From Sandaracinus amylolyticus (GTDB taxonomy: Bacteria > Myxococcota_A > Polyangia > Polyangiales > Sandaracinaceae), in the NCBI RefSeq assembly GCF_000737325.1, contig NZ_CP011125.1, positions 6,386,001 to 6,450,000 of the forward strand: 64,000 nucleotides of DNA, in the 5' to 3' direction. The position numbers were made by a program, and so were the translations under genes. The notes beneath the pieces are model-generated. The model saw only the letters and a program-made list of their open reading frames with translations. It ran no database searches and was not told the origin of the DNA. This document shows, in pieces, positions 3,664 through 54,965 of the stretch. Numbering within the stretch: the stretch's first letter is position 1; the number at the start of each line of letters is the position of its first letter.

Positions 3664-3679
3664 GTGTCGTGGCGACCGT

Positions 3680-3838
3680 GCCGCTTCGGTGTGCACTCGC
3701 TCCAGGTGCGCGCTGCGCGCGCACGTCGCTCTGCTGGTTTCGAAGGGTCTCGACGAGCGGGCCGCTCGTAGTGGGGTTGCTCCGCGGTCGGCGCGATCTC
3801 GAGTCCCCGCAGATCGTGCTCGAGCGCGTGATCTCGAC
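3680..3838 (-). repeat. dispersed 190-bp repeat, copy C (degenerate)
   Basis: It shares gcttcggtgtgcac, the stretch encoding gagcgggccgctcgtagtgg and gatctcgagtccccgcagat with the better copies at 4544-4735 and 54617-54809. The first third is eroded. Strand is given relative to the four-helix-bundle gene orientation. It starts just after the DUF4112 stop codon and lies downstream of the broken four-helix-bundle gene. Confidence 0.8.
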
Positions 3839-3874
3839 GACACGTGGGCATCGACGCGCTCGCGATCGCGAGAA

Positions 3875-3916
3875 CCCGCACTCGCACCCGCACTCGCACT
3901 CGCACTCGCACTCGCA
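3875..3916. repeat. hexanucleotide array (CTCGCA)n, about 7 units
   Basis: Seven near-perfect c(t/c)cgca units occur in a row between the repeat copy and the terminator hairpin of the four-helix-bundle pseudogene. Similar hexamer runs accompany the second locus (17886-17962, 18241-18312, 18838-18870). Confidence 0.9.
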
Positions 3917-3952
3917 ACACGAGCCGGCGGCCTCGCGACCGCCGGCTCGTGT
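3917..3952 (-). terminator. strong hairpin, likely terminator of four-helix-bundle gene
   Basis: A perfect 14-bp inverted repeat (acacgagccggcgg at 3917-3930, complement at 3939-3952) with an 8-nt loop. It begins 4 bp after the TGA of the minus-strand pseudogene (3957-3959). There is no long T-tract, so termination is inferred from position and stem strength. Confidence 0.75.
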
Positions 3953-4248: not shown

Positions 4249-4520
4249 CGTCGTCTCCGCGCCCGGCTCGAAGCTCGACTCGCGTCAGTGCGAGCCGGCC
4301 CGAGCTCGGGTGCGCAGCACCTCCGCACCCGCGCGCAGGCGGGGTCGGGGCTCGCGAAGCGACCGTGCAGCGAAATCGATGGCGAGCCGCTGTTCGCTCG
4401 CTGTCGATTTCGTGGAGCGGCGGGCCCGCAGGGCCCGGCCTCGACGCCGCCGAGCACGCCGGCACGCTCGAGAAGCCCGAGCGACCCATCCCGGCTTCCA
4501 GGTGGTGTGATCTCGACGAC
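4249..4520 (-). ncRNA. conserved structured leader of the four-helix-bundle gene (locus 1)
   Basis: This stretch has no gene. It is an inverted copy of 18336-18581 and similar over most of its length. Two hairpins are conserved. One at 4421-4437 has 7-bp arms (cgggccc/gggcccg) around a 3-nt loop. One at 4371-4412 has outer arms cgaaatcga/tcgatttcg (9 bp), a 2-nt internal mismatch and an inner 6-bp stem. Conservation of non-coding hairpins between two loci suggests a structured RNA or DNA signal. Transcription is inferred, not seen. Confidence 0.55.
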
Positions 4521-4543
4521 GCGCTCGTCGCTCGCGGTGAGGT

Positions 4544-4735
4544 GACCTCGAGGACGATCTGGGTGCTCACCGTCAGGCTTCGGTGTGCACGTTCGCTCGA
4601 GGGCGCGCTGGCGCGCGCTCGCGCTCACAGCTGTTTCGTTCGAGCCGTGTCGAGCGGGCCGCTCGTGGTGGGGTTGCTTCGCGGTCGGCGCGATCTCGAG
4701 TCCCCGCGGATCGTGCTCGCGGGCGTGATCTCGAG
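4544..4735 (-). repeat. dispersed 190-bp repeat, copy B
   Basis: Near full length, bounded by acctcgag and gatctcgag. It contains the same order of blocks as the other copies: gggtgctcaccgtcaggctt, a GC hairpin around gagggcgcgctggcgcgcgc, cagctgtttcgtt, gcgggccgctcgtggtgggg and cgatctcgagtccccgcgga. Strand is relative to the four-helix-bundle gene. Its distal end truncates the gene fragment at 4625-5017. Confidence 0.88.
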
Positions 4736-5017
4736 CGCCAGCTCGGGCGCGCTCTCCGCGAGCCCGTGCACGAGCCACGGCACGACCGCGTACGCGCACG
4801 ACGTGATCGACAGCTGGTGCAAGAAGAGCTCGAAGAGCTCGCCATACTCGTCGCGCTCGAGGTCGCGGCCGCGCGCGCCGAGCCAGCGCTCGATCGCGAG
4901 CGGGACCTCGCCGCCGTCGCCGAAGTGCGTCTCCAGCTCCGCCCACCGCGGGCTCTCCAGGTCGAGCGGGCTCACGTCGTCGTCCTCCTGCGCTCGCCGA
5001 GCACGATATCCGAGCAT
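4625..5017 (-). pseudogene. N-terminal fragment of a conserved protein, truncated by repeat copy B
   Basis: From the ATG at 5017 about 94 codons look like genuine protein: M-L-G-Y-R-A, then S-P-R-W-A-E-L-E-T-H-F-G-D, Y-G-E-L-F-E-L-F-L-H-Q and Y-A-V-V-P-W-L-V. The spacing of R-W-x-E-L-E, L-x-H-Q and A-V-P-x-L-V resembles a myxobacterial family of HEAT/SMI1-neighbour-type proteins, from memory only. At about 4735 the frame runs into the repeat, and the last about 37 codons are repeat-encoded. The gene has therefore lost its 3' part at the repeat boundary. Confidence 0.6.
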
Positions 5018-5037
5018 CGCCCCTCCGAGCGGCGCCG

Positions 5038-5310
5038 GCGCCACGCACCACGCCCACGCTCGACCCTTCCCGCGATCCCGGCTCCACGCACCACGCCCAC
5101 GCTCGACCCTTCGCGCGATCCCCGCCTCACGCACTCCATCCACGCTCGACCCTTCGAGCGGTCCCTGCGCCACGCACCACGCGCACGCTCGACCCTTCCC
5201 GCAGCGCCCGCGCCACGCACCCCATCCACGCTCGGCCCTTCGCCCAGCGCCCGCACCACGCACCCATCCACGCTCGACCCGCGCCGCGATCCCGCGTCCA
5301 CGCTCGACCT
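5038..5310. repeat. imperfect tandem repeat, about 39-bp unit, about 7 copies
   Basis: The recurring core is cacgctcgacccttc, preceded by ccacgcacc(ac)gccc/atc and followed by a variable gcgatccc or agcgcccg block. Spacing is about 37-42 bp. There is no constant repeat plus unique spacer pattern, so it is not a CRISPR. It fills the gap upstream of the gene starting at 5389 and the start of the truncated gene at 5017. Confidence 0.8.
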
Positions 5311-17885: not shown

Positions 17886-17962
17886 GCGCGCCAGGGGCGG
17901 GAGGGGGCGGGGGCGAGTGCGAGGGCGGGGGCGAGGGCGAGTGCGGGGGCGGGGGCGGGAAG
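17886..17962 (+). repeat. G-rich hexamer array (GGGGGC/GCGAGT units)
   Basis: Runs of gggggcgggggcgagtgcg-like units with at least four G4-5 tracts on the plus strand. It lies between the hypothetical gene and repeat copy D. The array has G-quadruplex potential, inferred from tract spacing only. Confidence 0.85.
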
Positions 17963-18002
17963 CGCGTTCTCGAGATCGCGAGCGCGTCGAAGAGCGCGAC
18001 CG

Positions 18003-18195
18003 TTCTCGAGAGCGCGCCTCCGAGCACGATCCGCGGGGACTCGAGATCGCGCCCCTGCGAAGCAACCCCACCACGAGCGGCCCGCTCGACACGGCTCAAA
18101 CGAAACAGCGGTGAGCGCGAGCGCGCGCCAGCGCGCCCTCGCGCGAACGTGCACACCGAAGCCTCACGGTGAGCACCCAGCGCGCTCTCGAGATC
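18003..18195 (+). repeat. dispersed 190-bp repeat, copy D (upstream of four-helix-bundle locus 2)
   Basis: Bounded by ttctcgaga and ctcgagatcac. It contains cgcggggactcgagatcgcg, ccaccacgagcggcccgctc, aaacgaaacagcggtgagcg, the GC hairpin and cctcacggtgagcaccc. An extra partial unit (17968-18002) precedes it. It is in the same orientation as copy E, so the two bracket the gene at 18582 as direct repeats. Confidence 0.88.
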
Positions 18196-18240
18196 ACGCT
18201 CTCGAAGGCGACGAGCGCGTCCTCGAGATCACCCCAGCGC

Positions 18241-18312
18241 GAAGCAACCCCGCACCCGCACGCGCCCCCGCACCCGCACGCGCCCCCGCACCCATCCCCG
18301 CCCCCGCACCCC
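18241..18312. repeat. C-rich hexamer array upstream of the leader
   Basis: Repeated cccgcacccgcacgcgcccc-type units, the complement type of the array at 17886-17962. It separates copy D from the structured leader. Confidence 0.85.
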
Positions 18313-18335
18313 AAGCTCCATCACGCCGCCTGCAG

Positions 18336-18581
18336 GCCGGAGTGGGTCGCTCGGGCTTCTCGAGCGTGCTGGCGTGCTCGGCGGCGTCGAGGCCGGGCCC
18401 TGCGGGCCCGCCGCTCCGCGAAATCGACAGCGAGCAACAGCGGCTCGCCATCGATTTCGCTGCACGGTCGCTTCGCGAGCCTCGACCCCGCCTGCGCGCG
18501 CCTGCGGGGGTGCTGCGCACCCGAGCTCGGGTCGGCGCGCACTGACGCGAGTCGAGCTTCGAGCCGGGCGCGGAGACGACG
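18336..18581 (+). ncRNA. conserved structured leader of the four-helix-bundle gene (locus 2)
   Basis: It is collinear with the inverted copy at 4249-4520. Hairpin 1 is 18394-18410 (cgggccc-tgc-gggcccg). Hairpin 2 is 18419-18459: 9-bp outer stem, CA/CA internal loop, 6-bp inner stem gcgagc/gctcgc, 7-nt loop aacagcg. The internal-loop bases are the same in both loci when read in gene orientation. A third conserved block, acccgagctcgggt, contains a perfect palindrome, followed by cactgacgcgagtcgagcttcg just before the ATG. There is no ORF. RNA function is inferred from conservation and structure. Confidence 0.6.
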
Positions 18582-18836
18582 ATGCTCAGGATCTACACGG
18601 ACGCCGTCGAGCTGGTGCGCGACGCAGCGCGGCTGGGCGAAGCGGTGAAGACGCGCAGCGCGGAGCTGGCGCGACAGCTCGAGCGCGCGGCGATCAGCGT
18701 GCCGCTCAATCTCGCGGAGGCGGACGGCCTGCGCGGCGGGAATCGACGGCTGCGCAACCTGACGGCGCTCGGGAGCGCGCGGGAGGTGAGCGCGTGTCTG
18801 GACGTGATCGAAGCGCTCGGAGCGGGAGGGCGGGGG
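18582..18836 (+). pseudogene. four-helix-bundle (S23/IVP-type) protein, 3'-truncated
   Basis: The first 83 codons are intact: M-L-R-I-Y-T-D-A-V-E-L-V-R-D-A, L-A-R-Q-L-E-R-A-A-I-S-V-P-L-N-L-A-E-A, R-N-L-T-A-L-G-S-A-R-E-V-S-A-C-L-D-V-I. These are hallmarks of the family (A-x-S-V-P-x-N-x-A-E and A-L-G-S-x-R-E). The last about 23 residues, present in the 3957-4248 copy as a long helix ending in I-I-G-T-L-V-R, are replaced by a hexamer run. The frame then drifts on through copy E to 19247, making a chimeric 221-aa ORF unlikely to be native. The intact family is related to 23S-rRNA-IVS proteins and Avd. Confidence 0.82.
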
Positions 18837-18915
18837 AAGCGTGCGAGTGCGGAGCGAGCGTGCGAGTGCGAGTGCGCGTTCTCGAGATCGCCAGCGCGTC
18901 GAAGATCGCGACCGT

Positions 18916-19109
18916 CCTCGAGATCACATCGCCGAGCACGATCTGCGGGGACTCGAGATCGCGCCCCTGCGAAGCAACCCCACCACGAGCGGCCCGCTCG
19001 ACGAGACCCAAACGAAACAGCTGTGAGCGCGAGCGCGCGCCAGCGCGCCCTCGCGCGAACGTGCACACCGAAGCCTCACGGTGAGCACCTAGATCGTTCT
19101 CGAGATCAC
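18916..19109 (+). repeat. dispersed 190-bp repeat, copy E (downstream of four-helix-bundle locus 2)
   Basis: Bounded by cctcgagatcac and ctcgagatcacg. About 90% identical by eye to copy D over the core. Its terminal ctcgagatcac supplies the TGA stop (19106-19108, minus strand) of the large lipoprotein gene that ends there. Confidence 0.88.
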
Positions 19110-21661
19110 GGCGCCAGCACGACTGCCGCGTCGGTGCCGTTCGTGCCGTCCGTGCCCGACATGCCCGGCGAGAAGCCGCCGCGGCCGCCGCGGCCCGCGA
19201 CGCCCGCGCGCTCGATCATCACCGAGCCCGCGACCGCGTCGCGATAGCCCCCATCCGCGCCGCTGATGTACACGCCGTGGCTGCCGCCGCCGCATCCACC
19301 ACCGCCGCCGCCGCCCGAGCCGCCACGGCCGCCGTCGCCGCCGCGGCCGCCCATGCGCGCGCACCAGAAGCGGCCCACCCCGCCGCCCGCGCCCGTGCCG
19401 CCCGCGCCGCCCGCCGCGCCGACGCCGCCGTCGCCGCCGCGGCCGCCGCTCGAGGTCACGACGCGCACCGTGCTCTCGAACGTCGGCCCGGCGCCGCCGC
19501 GCGCGATGACGAGCACGCCGACCGAGTAGCCCGCGCCGCCGCCGCCGTCGGCCTGGGGCGCGCCGCAGCCGCCGCTGCCGCCGCCGCCTCCGCTGCCGCC
19601 GCTGCGATCGATGCAGCTGCCCGACGTGCCGCCGATCACCTCGTACCCGCCGCCCGCCGTCGCGCCGCCACCGCCGCTGCCGTCGCTGCCCGGCGTGCCG
19701 TCGCTGCCGCGACGACCGGCGAGCCGCCCCTGCACGTCGACGATCGGAGGCGCGCTGCACCCGAGCCCGCCCCCGCCGTTCGCGCCGCTGCCGCCGTCGA
19801 CGCCGTTGCCGCCGTCGCGGAGCAGCGTCGGGTTGTCGTCGCAGAAGTTGCAGACGCCGCGGTTGGTCGGCGCGTTGAACGAGAGCTCGCCCGCCGCGCC
19901 CGGCGTCGGGCCGCGGCCCGTCTGCGCGGCGGGGTTCGGCGTCGCGAGCGCGAGCACGCGATCGATGTCGCAGACGCCGCCGCTCGTGAAGTCGGTGCAG
20001 CCCGCGTTCGCGCACGCCGCGCCGTTCGTGCAGATGTTCCCCGGGCACTCCGCGGCACCACCGCGACCGCCGCTCACGTCGACCGCGCGGCACGCGTGAC
20101 GACCGCCCGCGCCGCCCTCGACGCGACGGCACGCGACGCCGTCGGTGTTGCCCGGCGCGCCCTCGGCGCCGCGCGTTCCGTCGAGCTGGGTGAGCGTGCT
20201 GAGGCCCCAGTCGCGCAGGTTCGTGCTCGAGTCGTCGCCGCGCACGCCGTCGGCGCCACGCCCCGCGAGCACCGTGAGCGACGCGAAGCGCACCGCGGGC
20301 CCGCAGCCGTCGACGAGCACCGCGGTGCTGCCCGCGCCCTCGCGCGTCGCGTCGCTGCCCTGGATGACGAAGCCCTCGATGCGCGTGGCCGCCGTCACGT
20401 TGCGGCAGGTGAGCGGCGGCGTGCCCGCCTCGGCGGCGCTGCGCTCGATGAGCACCGGGTAGAGCTCGAGGTCGCGATCGCGGAAGTCCGGCGAGTACCC
20501 GCCGAACACGCTCACGCCGCCGACGACGTCGAAGGGCCCGTCGTAGATGCCGCGCGAGACGAGCACGTCCTTGCCCTGCGCGCGCGCGCGCTCCTGCGCC
20601 GCGGTCAGCGTGCGCATCGGACGCGCGAGCGTGCCGGGGTTGGTGTCGCTGCCGGTGACGCTCACGTAGACGAAGTCCGACGTGTCGTCGGGCACGCCGT
20701 CGCAGTCCGCGTCGCCGCCGACGGCGGGCGGCGGTCCGCTGCCGTCCCAGCGCTCGCACTCGCAGCCGTTCGCGAGGATGCGATCGACGTCGACGAAGCC
20801 CTCGAGGCACTCGACCTCGCAGCGCACGCTCGGCGCGGCGCCGTCGGGGAGGCACTCCGCGATCATGTTCGGCCCCGGCTCGACGCACGGGGTCGCGCAG
20901 CCGCCGCAGTGCAGGCGCGCGATGTAGCGGCCCTCTTCGTCGCGGAAGTCCTCGTCGAGCGCGCCGTCGCAGTCGTCGTCCTGCGCGTTGCAGACCTCGG
21001 TGAGCGCGGGCTCGCACTCGCTCGGTCCGTCGGCGCCGCAGCGCTGGATGCCGGCGCAGCGCTGGCCGTCGTCGGGGCTCTCGAGGATGCACGCGAGCTC
21101 CACGCCCTCCGTGCCCTCGCCGCACGCGCAGATGCCGCTGAGCGGGACGCACTGGCCGGGATCGCCCTCGGGCATGCCGGGCAGGCACTCGAAGCCCTCG
21201 GGGCAGAGCGCGGTGTCGTCGCACGGCTGGCCGCAGCGCATCGCGCCGGTCGCGGTCTCGAGGCAGCGGGCGCCGGGCAGGCGCAGGCCGCAGTCGTCGT
21301 CGGTCGTGCAGGGCAGACAGAGCGAGGGCACGTCGGGCACGCACGCGCCGTCGCCGGCGCGATGGAAGCCCTCGGCGCAGGTGATGATCACGCACGTCGG
21401 ACCGTTCTCCTCGTCGTCGACGCACTCGACGAGCTCGGCGGTCGGGAAGACGTCGGCGCAGACGATGCCGCACTGCCCGCACGCCTCGACGCTGCGGTAG
21501 ACGCCGTCGTCGTCGACGAAGCCCTCGTCGGCGCGGCCGTCGCAGTCGTCGTCGCGCAGGTTGCAGACCTCGGGCGTGCCGCAGAGGTGCGCCTCGTAGC
21601 AGCCGCTCAGCGCGACCAGCGCGACCAGGAGCAGGAGCGAACGCTCAACGAACGACGACAT
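19106..21661 (-). CDS. large Cys- and Gly-rich MopE-type lipoprotein (paralogue 2)
   Basis: 851 aa. The start at 21661 gives a lipoprotein signal with V-A-L-S-G-C (Cys21). Residues 30-330 hold repeated Cys-rich modules with C-N-L-R-D-D-D-C-D-G-R-A-D-E and C-N-A-Q-D-D-D-C-D-G-A-L-D-E, the MopE metal-binding type. About 340-480 contains S-V-T-G-S-D-T-N-P-G-T-L-A-R-P, typical of DUF1565/parallel beta-helix proteins. From about 500 to the end it is Gly-rich (collagen/PGRS-like), with R-G-G-D-G-G-x-G-G blocks. It is probably outer-membrane anchored and Ca-binding. It overlaps the upstream paralogue by 17 nt. Its stop codon lies inside the end of repeat copy E. Confidence 0.85.
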   Translation of the reverse strand: MSSFVERSLLLLVALVALSGCYEAHLCGTPEVCNLRDDDCDGRADEGFVDDDGVYRSVEACGQCGIVCADVFPTAELVECVDDEENGPTCVIITCAEGFHRAGDGACVPDVPSLCLPCTTDDDCGLRLPGARCLETATGAMRCGQPCDDTALCPEGFECLPGMPEGDPGQCVPLSGICACGEGTEGVELACILESPDDGQRCAGIQRCGADGPSECEPALTEVCNAQDDDCDGALDEDFRDEEGRYIARLHCGGCATPCVEPGPNMIAECLPDGAAPSVRCEVECLEGFVDVDRILANGCECERWDGSGPPPAVGGDADCDGVPDDTSDFVYVSVTGSDTNPGTLARPMRTLTAAQERARAQGKDVLVSRGIYDGPFDVVGGVSVFGGYSPDFRDRDLELYPVLIERSAAEAGTPPLTCRNVTAATRIEGFVIQGSDATREGAGSTAVLVDGCGPAVRFASLTVLAGRGADGVRGDDSSTNLRDWGLSTLTQLDGTRGAEGAPGNTDGVACRRVEGGAGGRHACRAVDVSGGRGGAAECPGNICTNGAACANAGCTDFTSGGVCDIDRVLALATPNPAAQTGRGPTPGAAGELSFNAPTNRGVCNFCDDNPTLLRDGGNGVDGGSGANGGGGLGCSAPPIVDVQGRLAGRRGSDGTPGSDGSGGGGATAGGGYEVIGGTSGSCIDRSGGSGGGGGSGGCGAPQADGGGGAGYSVGVLVIARGGAGPTFESTVRVVTSSGGRGGDGGVGAAGGAGGTGAGGGVGRFWCARMGGRGGDGGRGGSGGGGGGGCGGGSHGVYISGADGGYRDAVAGSVMIERAGVAGRGGRGGFSPGMSGTDGTNGTDAAVVLAP

Positions 21662-54601: not shown

Positions 54602-54616
54602 TCGCTTTCGAGCGCG

Positions 54617-54809
54617 CGATCTCGAGAACGAGCTGGGTGCTCACCGTGAGGCTTCGGTGTGCGCGTTCGCGCGAGGGCGCGCTGGCGCGCGCTCGCGCTC
54701 ACAGCTGTTTCGTTTGGGTCTCGTCGAGCGGGCCGCTCGTGGTGGGGTTGCTTCGCGGTTGGCGCGATCTCGAGTCCCCGCAGATCGTGCTCGGGGGCGT
54801 GACTCGAGG
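54617..54809 (-). repeat. dispersed 190-bp repeat, copy A (solo)
   Basis: Full-length and well preserved, bounded by atctcgagaacg and gactcgagg, with no four-helix-bundle gene nearby. The GC hairpin is clear: 14-bp arms (54669-54682 and 54685-54698) with one mismatch and a 2-nt loop. Blocks cagctgtttcgtttgggtct and cgatctcgagtccccgcaga match the other copies. Confidence 0.9.
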
Positions 54810-54821
54810 ACGTGCTCGGTC

Positions 54822-54965
54822 GTGACGCTCGTCGCGTCGCGCTCCGCGCGCCGAGACGAACGCTCGCACGCACGTTCGTGATGCTCTGTCCGTCGCGCTC
54901 CGCGCGCCGGACAGAGCACTCGCTCTCCGTGACGCTCGTTCGATCGCGCTTCGCGCGCTCGCCCG
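54822..54965. repeat. short tandem hairpin units
   Basis: Three imperfect units share gtc-gcgctccgcgcgcc-type loops. The clearest is gctctgtccg (54883-54892) pairing with cggacagagc (54908-54917) around tcgcgctccgcgcgc. Located between copy A and the IS flank. No gene. Confidence 0.65.

Follow-up and report, generated by a model that had tools for sequence, protein, structure and literature searches.

A decayed unit in Sandaracinus amylolyticus that probably belongs to a class of mobile elements built on an S23/IVP gene and bounded by inverted short-repeat arrays

Results

A 64,000-bp stretch of the Sandaracinus amylolyticus chromosome (contig NZ_CP011125.1, positions 6,386,001 to 6,450,000; referred to here as the window, with positions counted from its first base) contains a unit that quite probably belongs, as a decayed copy, to a class of small mobile elements built on a gene of the S23/IVP family, which is encoded within intervening sequences (IVSs) of 23S rRNA. 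The intact element measures about 1.0 to 1.2 kb and shows a recurring anatomy, which, as read from sequence comparison, consists of a short-repeat array, a structured leader (in element families I to III), a single IVP gene (PF05635), a terminator hairpin, and a second array of the same type in inverted orientation. The class, defined by an S23/IVP gene with inverted short-repeat array ends, is apparently new; the repeat unit is a hexamer in the Polyangia and a heptamer in cousins of the element in many phyla. An earlier prediction from the sequence alone (the original prediction) had proposed here an undescribed and possibly mobile unit, in which a hexamer array, a leader with two hairpins, and an S23-type open reading frame (ORF) were bracketed by two direct repeats of about 190 bp, D and E. 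The listed features are all present, and the proposal of an undescribed, probably mobile unit has held up, whereas the frame differs: the ends common to these elements are the arrays and not the repeats.

On the plus strand, the window unit comprises an upstream hexamer array of the CCCGCA type (18249 to 18311, found with Tandem Repeats Finder), the leader (18336 to 18581), the remnant of the IVP gene (18582 to 18825), and a downstream hexamer array of the GTGCGA type (approximately 18841 to 18876; L001 2006-2041), which is in type the reverse complement of the array before the leader. Repeats D and E do bracket the gene, as had been stated; the inventory of arrays was incomplete and is extended by this inverted array and by an outer plus-strand array of the GGGCGG/GAGGGC type outside repeat D (17897 to 17961, lag-6 scan), whose orthologue in the congener genome G008 adjoins a single repeat at a site where the gene is missing. 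The ORF starting from the ATG at 18582 matched PF05635 with 40.3 bits (cut-off, 33.8 bits) over profile positions 3 to 84 of 106, and its intact relatives also scored above the curated cut-off. The gene is thus confirmed, but not its intactness: homology with the intact congener copy stops at codon 81 (18825), where the sequence passes directly into the array. The fourth helix of the S23 four-helix fold and the terminator are therefore gone, and the frame remains open through the array and the repeat as far as 19247. In the intact relatives L003 (same genome) and L087 (G008), the protein ends in ...RIIGTLVRCTR, and a terminator-like hairpin separates the gene from the array.

A second copy lies on the minus strand of the window and contains a leader that is 96% identical to the first (4249 to 4495), a decayed IVP gene (L308, 4028 to 4248) with a single-frame match limited to profile positions 32 to 105, and a hexamer array (3868 to 3924, Tandem Repeats Finder and lag-6 scan). 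The combination of leader, array, gene, and repeat in the window is far above chance, because copies of the leader adjoin an IVP gene or remnant together with a repeat and because lag-6 arrays are rare elsewhere. Judged on these sequence features, the window copy is probably a decayed member of the element class.

Hexamer arrays at IVP genes in the Polyangia

Complete flanks were available for 82 Polyangia IVP genes, of which 63 had a lag-6 array within 1.2 kb, 30 of them on each side and 33 on a single side. Such arrays were found in 98 of 184 near flanks (0 to 800 bp) versus 3 of 127 far flanks (1.6 to 2.4 kb), a contrast with a Fisher p of 7e-25, in which the flanks of neighboring genes are not wholly independent; lags of 4, 5, 7, 8, 10, and 11 gave counts near zero on the same flanks. 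A control 400 kb of the window genome contained four lag-6 arrays covering 201 bp in total. Furthermore, four consecutive GCGTCN units occurred 77 times in the 10.3-Mb genome, with 72 of these matches at three family-II IVP loci, and the reversed pattern did not occur.

Five IVP genes of the window genome (L010, L011, L015, L016, and L003) have an array on each side, the second being reverse complemented, and the clear array pairs in the window's genus are inverted. The hexamer is GCGTCN in family II, GCGTGN in family III, GAGTCC in family IV, and a set of G-rich mixed units in family I, which shows, as far as sequence can, that the hexamer type tracks the element family within one genus. Across the 29 units of the upstream L010 array, five positions were invariant and the sixth was nearly random (0.2 bit); the clearest Polyangia array unit is five fixed nucleotides and one variable nucleotide, with lower regularity in the other arrays. 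Simple replication slippage would not be expected to yield units with a free position beside five invariant ones, and a mechanism for them is needed. The two arms at L010 had a predicted pairing energy of -527 kcal/mol versus -258 kcal/mol for shuffled arms, and the arms of intact elements can pair far better than shuffles; by the same duplex energy, the arms of the window copy gained little.

Several other arrangements were seen at IVP loci. Convergent pairs of differing IVP genes, about 40 to 150 bp apart, were present at several loci in G118 (L105, L106, and L107), G029 (L112), G107, and G105 (L162) and may be a variant of the element that carries two genes. At L118 (G139:C1:5664008), the IVP frame enters a GCAGCA array that would append a tail of about 70 alanines. 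In both Sandaracinus genomes (L009 and L037), a canonical IVP gene adjoins a tRNA-like sequence and has short repeats of the CACGTG type on each side.

Heptamer arrays at IVP genes in other phyla

The 80 IVP loci from outside the Polyangia came from cyanobacteria, Chloroflexi, Nitrospirota, Acidobacteriota, Bacteroidota, Planctomycetota, Proteobacteria, and other groups; they were fetched with one consensus-like query sequence, so this sample leans toward canonical IVPs. When lags of 4 to 14 were scanned, a signal was found only at 7 and its multiple, 14. Upstream of the gene, this signal was present in 30 of 78 near flanks versus 7 of 71 more distant ones; downstream, the counts were 23 of 77 and 8 of 73. 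The heptamer was mostly TCAGCNN 5' of the gene and its reverse complement 3' of the gene, with the TCAGC-like orientation prevailing upstream (23 versus 5) and the opposite one downstream (3 versus 20). At the sequence level, these counts show that the arrays keep the same polarity with respect to the gene in different phyla. Several of the heptamer arrays had two freer positions per unit.

Presence/absence sites and copy number

Comparison of the two Sandaracinus genomes revealed sites at which a whole unit is present in one and missing in the other. The family-III unit of G008 at L083 (2044 to 3273; 1,230 bp including both arrays) is missing at position 7145256 of the window genome (G000), where the flanks join at a single base and the array-free site holds only GAGCGTCACGC; the single-base junction indicates that the 1,230-bp unit with both its arrays is the polymorphic piece. 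A second family-III unit of G008 (L044, 1262 to 2288; 1,027 bp) is missing at positions 1954115 to 1954119 of the window genome, and this empty site retains only the minimal inverted pair GTGAGCGTGAGC-CCC-CACGCTCACGCTCAC. The leader and gene of the window unit (18198 to 18827) are missing at the syntenic locus of G008, where a hexamer array and a single repeat, orthologous to E, are retained. The element at L012 lies within a gene whose G008 counterpart is uninterrupted, and in G008 the element occupies a different position; the L012 locus is rearranged. The sites of L012 and L085 are array-free where the element is missing. No clean presence/absence site was found for L088 against the window genome, and at L097 (G007 versus G006) the contigs end within the arrays.

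In addition, the related genome G007 has about 14 near-identical, evidently recent copies with differing arrays. Given the presence/absence sites and these copies, the comparisons suggest that the whole unit is probably mobile or is at least gained and lost as a whole between the two congeners. The original prediction that no transposase or reverse transcriptase is part of the unit was borne out: no gene besides the IVP gene would fit into the polymorphic pieces.

A covarying leader

In the window leader (plus strand), the pairing tested for covariation comprises hairpin 1 (GCTCGGGCTTCTCGAGC, 18349 to 18365; helix 1), a long-range stem formed by a 5' arm at 18368 to 18393 and a 3' arm at 18479 to 18505 (helix 2, with 8 pairs changed on both sides), and an inner hairpin at 18393 to 18410 (helix 3, with 3 pairs changed on both sides); a second hairpin at 18418 to 18460 is limited to family I. 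Both hairpins of the original prediction exist, the first of them being the inner hairpin of this stem; the best-supported structure is the hairpin at 18349 to 18365 together with the long-range stem. In a MAFFT alignment of the leaders, 95.0% of the cells formed standard pairs versus at most 44% when one arm was slid. Eleven pairs were doubly compensated, and the claim of a conserved structured leader is accordingly sustained; the covariation score was reached by 0 of 500 shuffles, and the count of changed pairs was reached by 65 of 500. One stem segment reads GACC/GGTC, GGAC/GTCC, or GGCG/CGCC according to the family, and among the leaders of G007 a hairpin covaries between copies within a single genome. 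The leader is assumed to fold as RNA, and folded single-stranded DNA would fit the covariation too.

The leaders of Sandaracinus families I to III are conserved, about 180 to 240 nt long, and share an architecture of a hairpin followed by a long stem in three parts, which contains a conserved internal loop and is closed by an inner hairpin, in families whose proteins are only about 40 to 50% identical to family I. Two other near-full copies of the window leader occur in the genome, each beside an IVP gene or remnant and a repeat, and the leader was found only alongside such a gene or remnant. No Rfam family reached its gathering score anywhere in the window, and at eight related loci only sub-threshold, chance-like matches were obtained, with no rRNA match among them. 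In the family-II leader of L085 (2378 to 2558), which precedes an apparently intact IVP gene, the conserved stem has lost its 3' arm. Two further ideas were dropped on inspection: a telomerase-like template in the leader, for which no match beyond one repeat unit was seen, and telomere-like linear ends, for which a constant strand skew was lacking.

The IVP protein

The intact family-I protein encoded at L087 was modeled as four helices with a predicted local distance difference test (pLDDT) score of 95. Through this relative, the S23/Avd-like fold that had been proposed was recovered: the best matches of the model, by VIA Z score, were two structures of the S23 family, 2rld (Z, 17.3) and 2gsc (Z, 16.9). 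They were followed by Avd, the accessory protein of diversity-generating retroelements (DGRs), both in the 8ub7 complex (Z, 14.2) and alone (4dwl; Z, 13.3); helical bundles that are unrelated came next, at a Z of 12.6 and lower. On these model comparisons, the Avd match by itself would be modest, and a common fold would not amount to a common function. To our knowledge, the IVP protein has no catalytic site. Kinship of Avd with PF05635 has been noted earlier (PMC10053308).

The dispersed repeat and other window features

Copies D (17962 to 18200) and E (18874 to 19110) of a dispersed 190- to 240-bp repeat have the same orientation on the plus strand and are 92% identical across 237 bp; E is orthologous to the lone repeat at the G008 site. 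The repeat matched 32 times genome-wide, mostly without an IVP gene. All four family-I copies (the window copy, those at 6390k and 6312k, and L087 of G008) are flanked by it in the same orientation, and it was not seen at the other Sandaracinus IVP families. The 190-bp repeats were therefore rejected as the ends of the unit, being mostly solo (among about 30 copies) and absent from the other families. Wide occurrence without the gene, which the original prediction had considered for both the repeat and the leader, was found for the repeat and not for the leader.

Further copies of the repeat lie at 3675 to 3879, at 4542 to 4735, and, on the minus strand, at 54614 to 54836, the last being isolated, with no IVP gene found nearby. 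The window also contains a tandem array of about six copies of a 43-bp unit (5017 to 5303) that is unrelated to the hexamers.

Discussion

We propose that the arrays are the recognition ends of the element and would pair with one another, either as DNA or as RNA, and that the IVP protein may bind the leader RNA, the arrays, or both. Cutting and joining would be supplied in trans by enzymes of the host or of other elements, since the polymorphic piece has no space for a further enzyme. New copies may land in short hexamer-like palindromes, or arrays may grow from them, as two empty sites, still few, suggest. The window unit lies within a hexamer array beside the dispersed repeat and later lost the 3' end of its gene.

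A number of observations weigh against this proposal. No array was detected by the lag criteria at 19 of 82 Polyangia IVP genes or at 34 of 75 loci elsewhere, and in G007, G029, G005, and G126, at loci that are often clustered, the array pairs are direct and not inverted. No IVP remnants were found at the solo hexamer arrays L294 to L306 of G000 and G008, which are of the types seen at IVP genes; one of them (L304) is an inverted pair of arrays, and no gene was found in the interval. Solo arrays in the window genome were sampled and not counted in full. No target-site duplication is visible where the flanks meet at one base or within 3 bp, at ends whose repetitiveness could mask short duplications. 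The presence/absence differences are unpolarized by an outgroup, and a precise loss would look alike. Finally, two heptamer elements that were inspected closely have insufficient space for a leader of this kind, which makes the leader an addition of some lineages and not essential to the class.

Several of these points would suit a different order of events, in which the short tandem arrays expand independently and serve as landing pads or recombination hot spots, and the IVP gene and leader are inserted or lost there by homologous recombination; arrays and gene would then be distinct entities found together. The existence of solo arrays, the G008 site orthologous to the window unit (an array and one repeat with the gene missing), and the minimal inverted hexamer pair left at the empty site of L044 all fit such a history. 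It is nonetheless unlikely, considering that the empty site of L083 and the element-free sites of L012 and L085 have no array, that GCGTCN arrays are almost confined to family-II IVP loci in the window genome, and that array polarity follows the gene across phyla. The pattern of five fixed positions and a single free one in each unit, along with the inverted arrangement, also resembles repeated protein-binding sites, and IVP could be a host DNA-binding protein acting on centromere- or operator-like arrays in an immobile regulatory or chromatin module spread by selection. Such a module appears improbable in view of the presence/absence sites, the decayed copies in the window, and a copy number that varies sharply among relatives, from 0 to 31 per genome within one family. 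As for a composite unit mobilized by the 190-bp direct repeats, through recombination or transposition resembling that of miniature inverted-repeat transposable elements, as originally proposed, it is favored by the same-orientation repeats on both sides of all four family-I copies. However, this anatomy recurs in families that lack the repeat, family III among them has presence/absence sites, and the repeat mostly occurs without the gene, all of which makes this origin very improbable. A mobile element with array ends remains our preferred explanation of the window unit.

IVSs of 23S rRNA, such as that of Coxiella burnetii, encode S23/IVP proteins, have paired ends (a 28-bp stem in Coxiella), and have been termed selfish (PMC4990558); a 1993 proposal cited in that article held that the IVS ORF serves mobility. 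The present units fit this proposal and share with IVSs the protein family and terminal inverted repeats able to pair, here in the form of the inverted arrays. They differ in location and structure: IVSs lie within 23S rRNA and are cut from the RNA by RNase III, whereas the present units are intergenic, are multicopy, end in short-repeat arrays, and, in some Polyangia families, have a structured leader. The window unit is not inside a 23S rRNA gene, as judged from the absence of Rfam matches in the window and of rRNA at the eight related loci.

RAYT genes are small transposase genes bracketed by their own inverted short repeats, with solo copies of the repeats elsewhere. The present element is similar in having a single small gene between inverted short repeats of its own type and solo repeats elsewhere; it differs in that the gene encodes a helical bundle of about 105 amino acids and not a transposase, and in that the arrays are built of 6- to 7-nt units and not of repetitive extragenic palindromic (REP) hairpins such as those of the described REPINs (PMC3116915). 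A Y1 (REP-associated) tyrosine transposase is not present in the 1,230-bp polymorphic piece, in which the arrays, the leader, and one PF05635 gene leave too little space for a gene of that size. With DGRs, the element shares the fold of Avd (Z, 13 to 14) and a nearby structured, RNA-like leader. No reverse transcriptase is present in the unit; the wider genome was not searched for one.

Heptamer repeats are known and common in bacteria, and the articles that describe them do not settle their origin. TAACTGA was described in Beggiatoaceae (PMC4679880), and GGGAATC and GGGGA(T/C)T were described in Xanthomonas and Nostoc, generally with no association with mobile elements found (PMC4692102). Like the arrays reported here, these repeats have seven-base units and are mostly intergenic, and TAACTGA is the reverse complement of TCAGTTA, which is close to the IVP-adjacent TCAGCNN/TCAGTNN arrays. 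Mention of an S23 or helix-bundle protein was not found in either article, and no paper tying IVP genes to arrays was found in the open-licence literature, which is weak evidence of absence. In figures of a survey of CRISPR-linked genes, 23S rRNA IVP appears among the proteins (PMC10910872), and short arrays beside IVP genes might in part explain its listing.

A broader generalization is plausible but, on balance, still doubtful: that IVP/S23 genes define a widespread mobile class without a catalytic protein of its own, that its ends are inverted arrays of five fixed and one or two free nucleotides made or kept by an element-specific and possibly RNA-directed process, that the IVSs of 23S rRNA are members which landed in rRNA, and that many unexplained bacterial heptamers are footprints of such elements. 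If the element class described here is real, it would be a mobile element with short-repeat array ends whose sole protein is a noncatalytic relative of the DGR accessory protein Avd, and it would explain where at least some of the overrepresented hexamer and heptamer repeats of bacteria come from. It would also provide a genomic setting and a testable role for the S23/IVP family, the function of which has been obscure since the discovery of the 23S rRNA IVSs.
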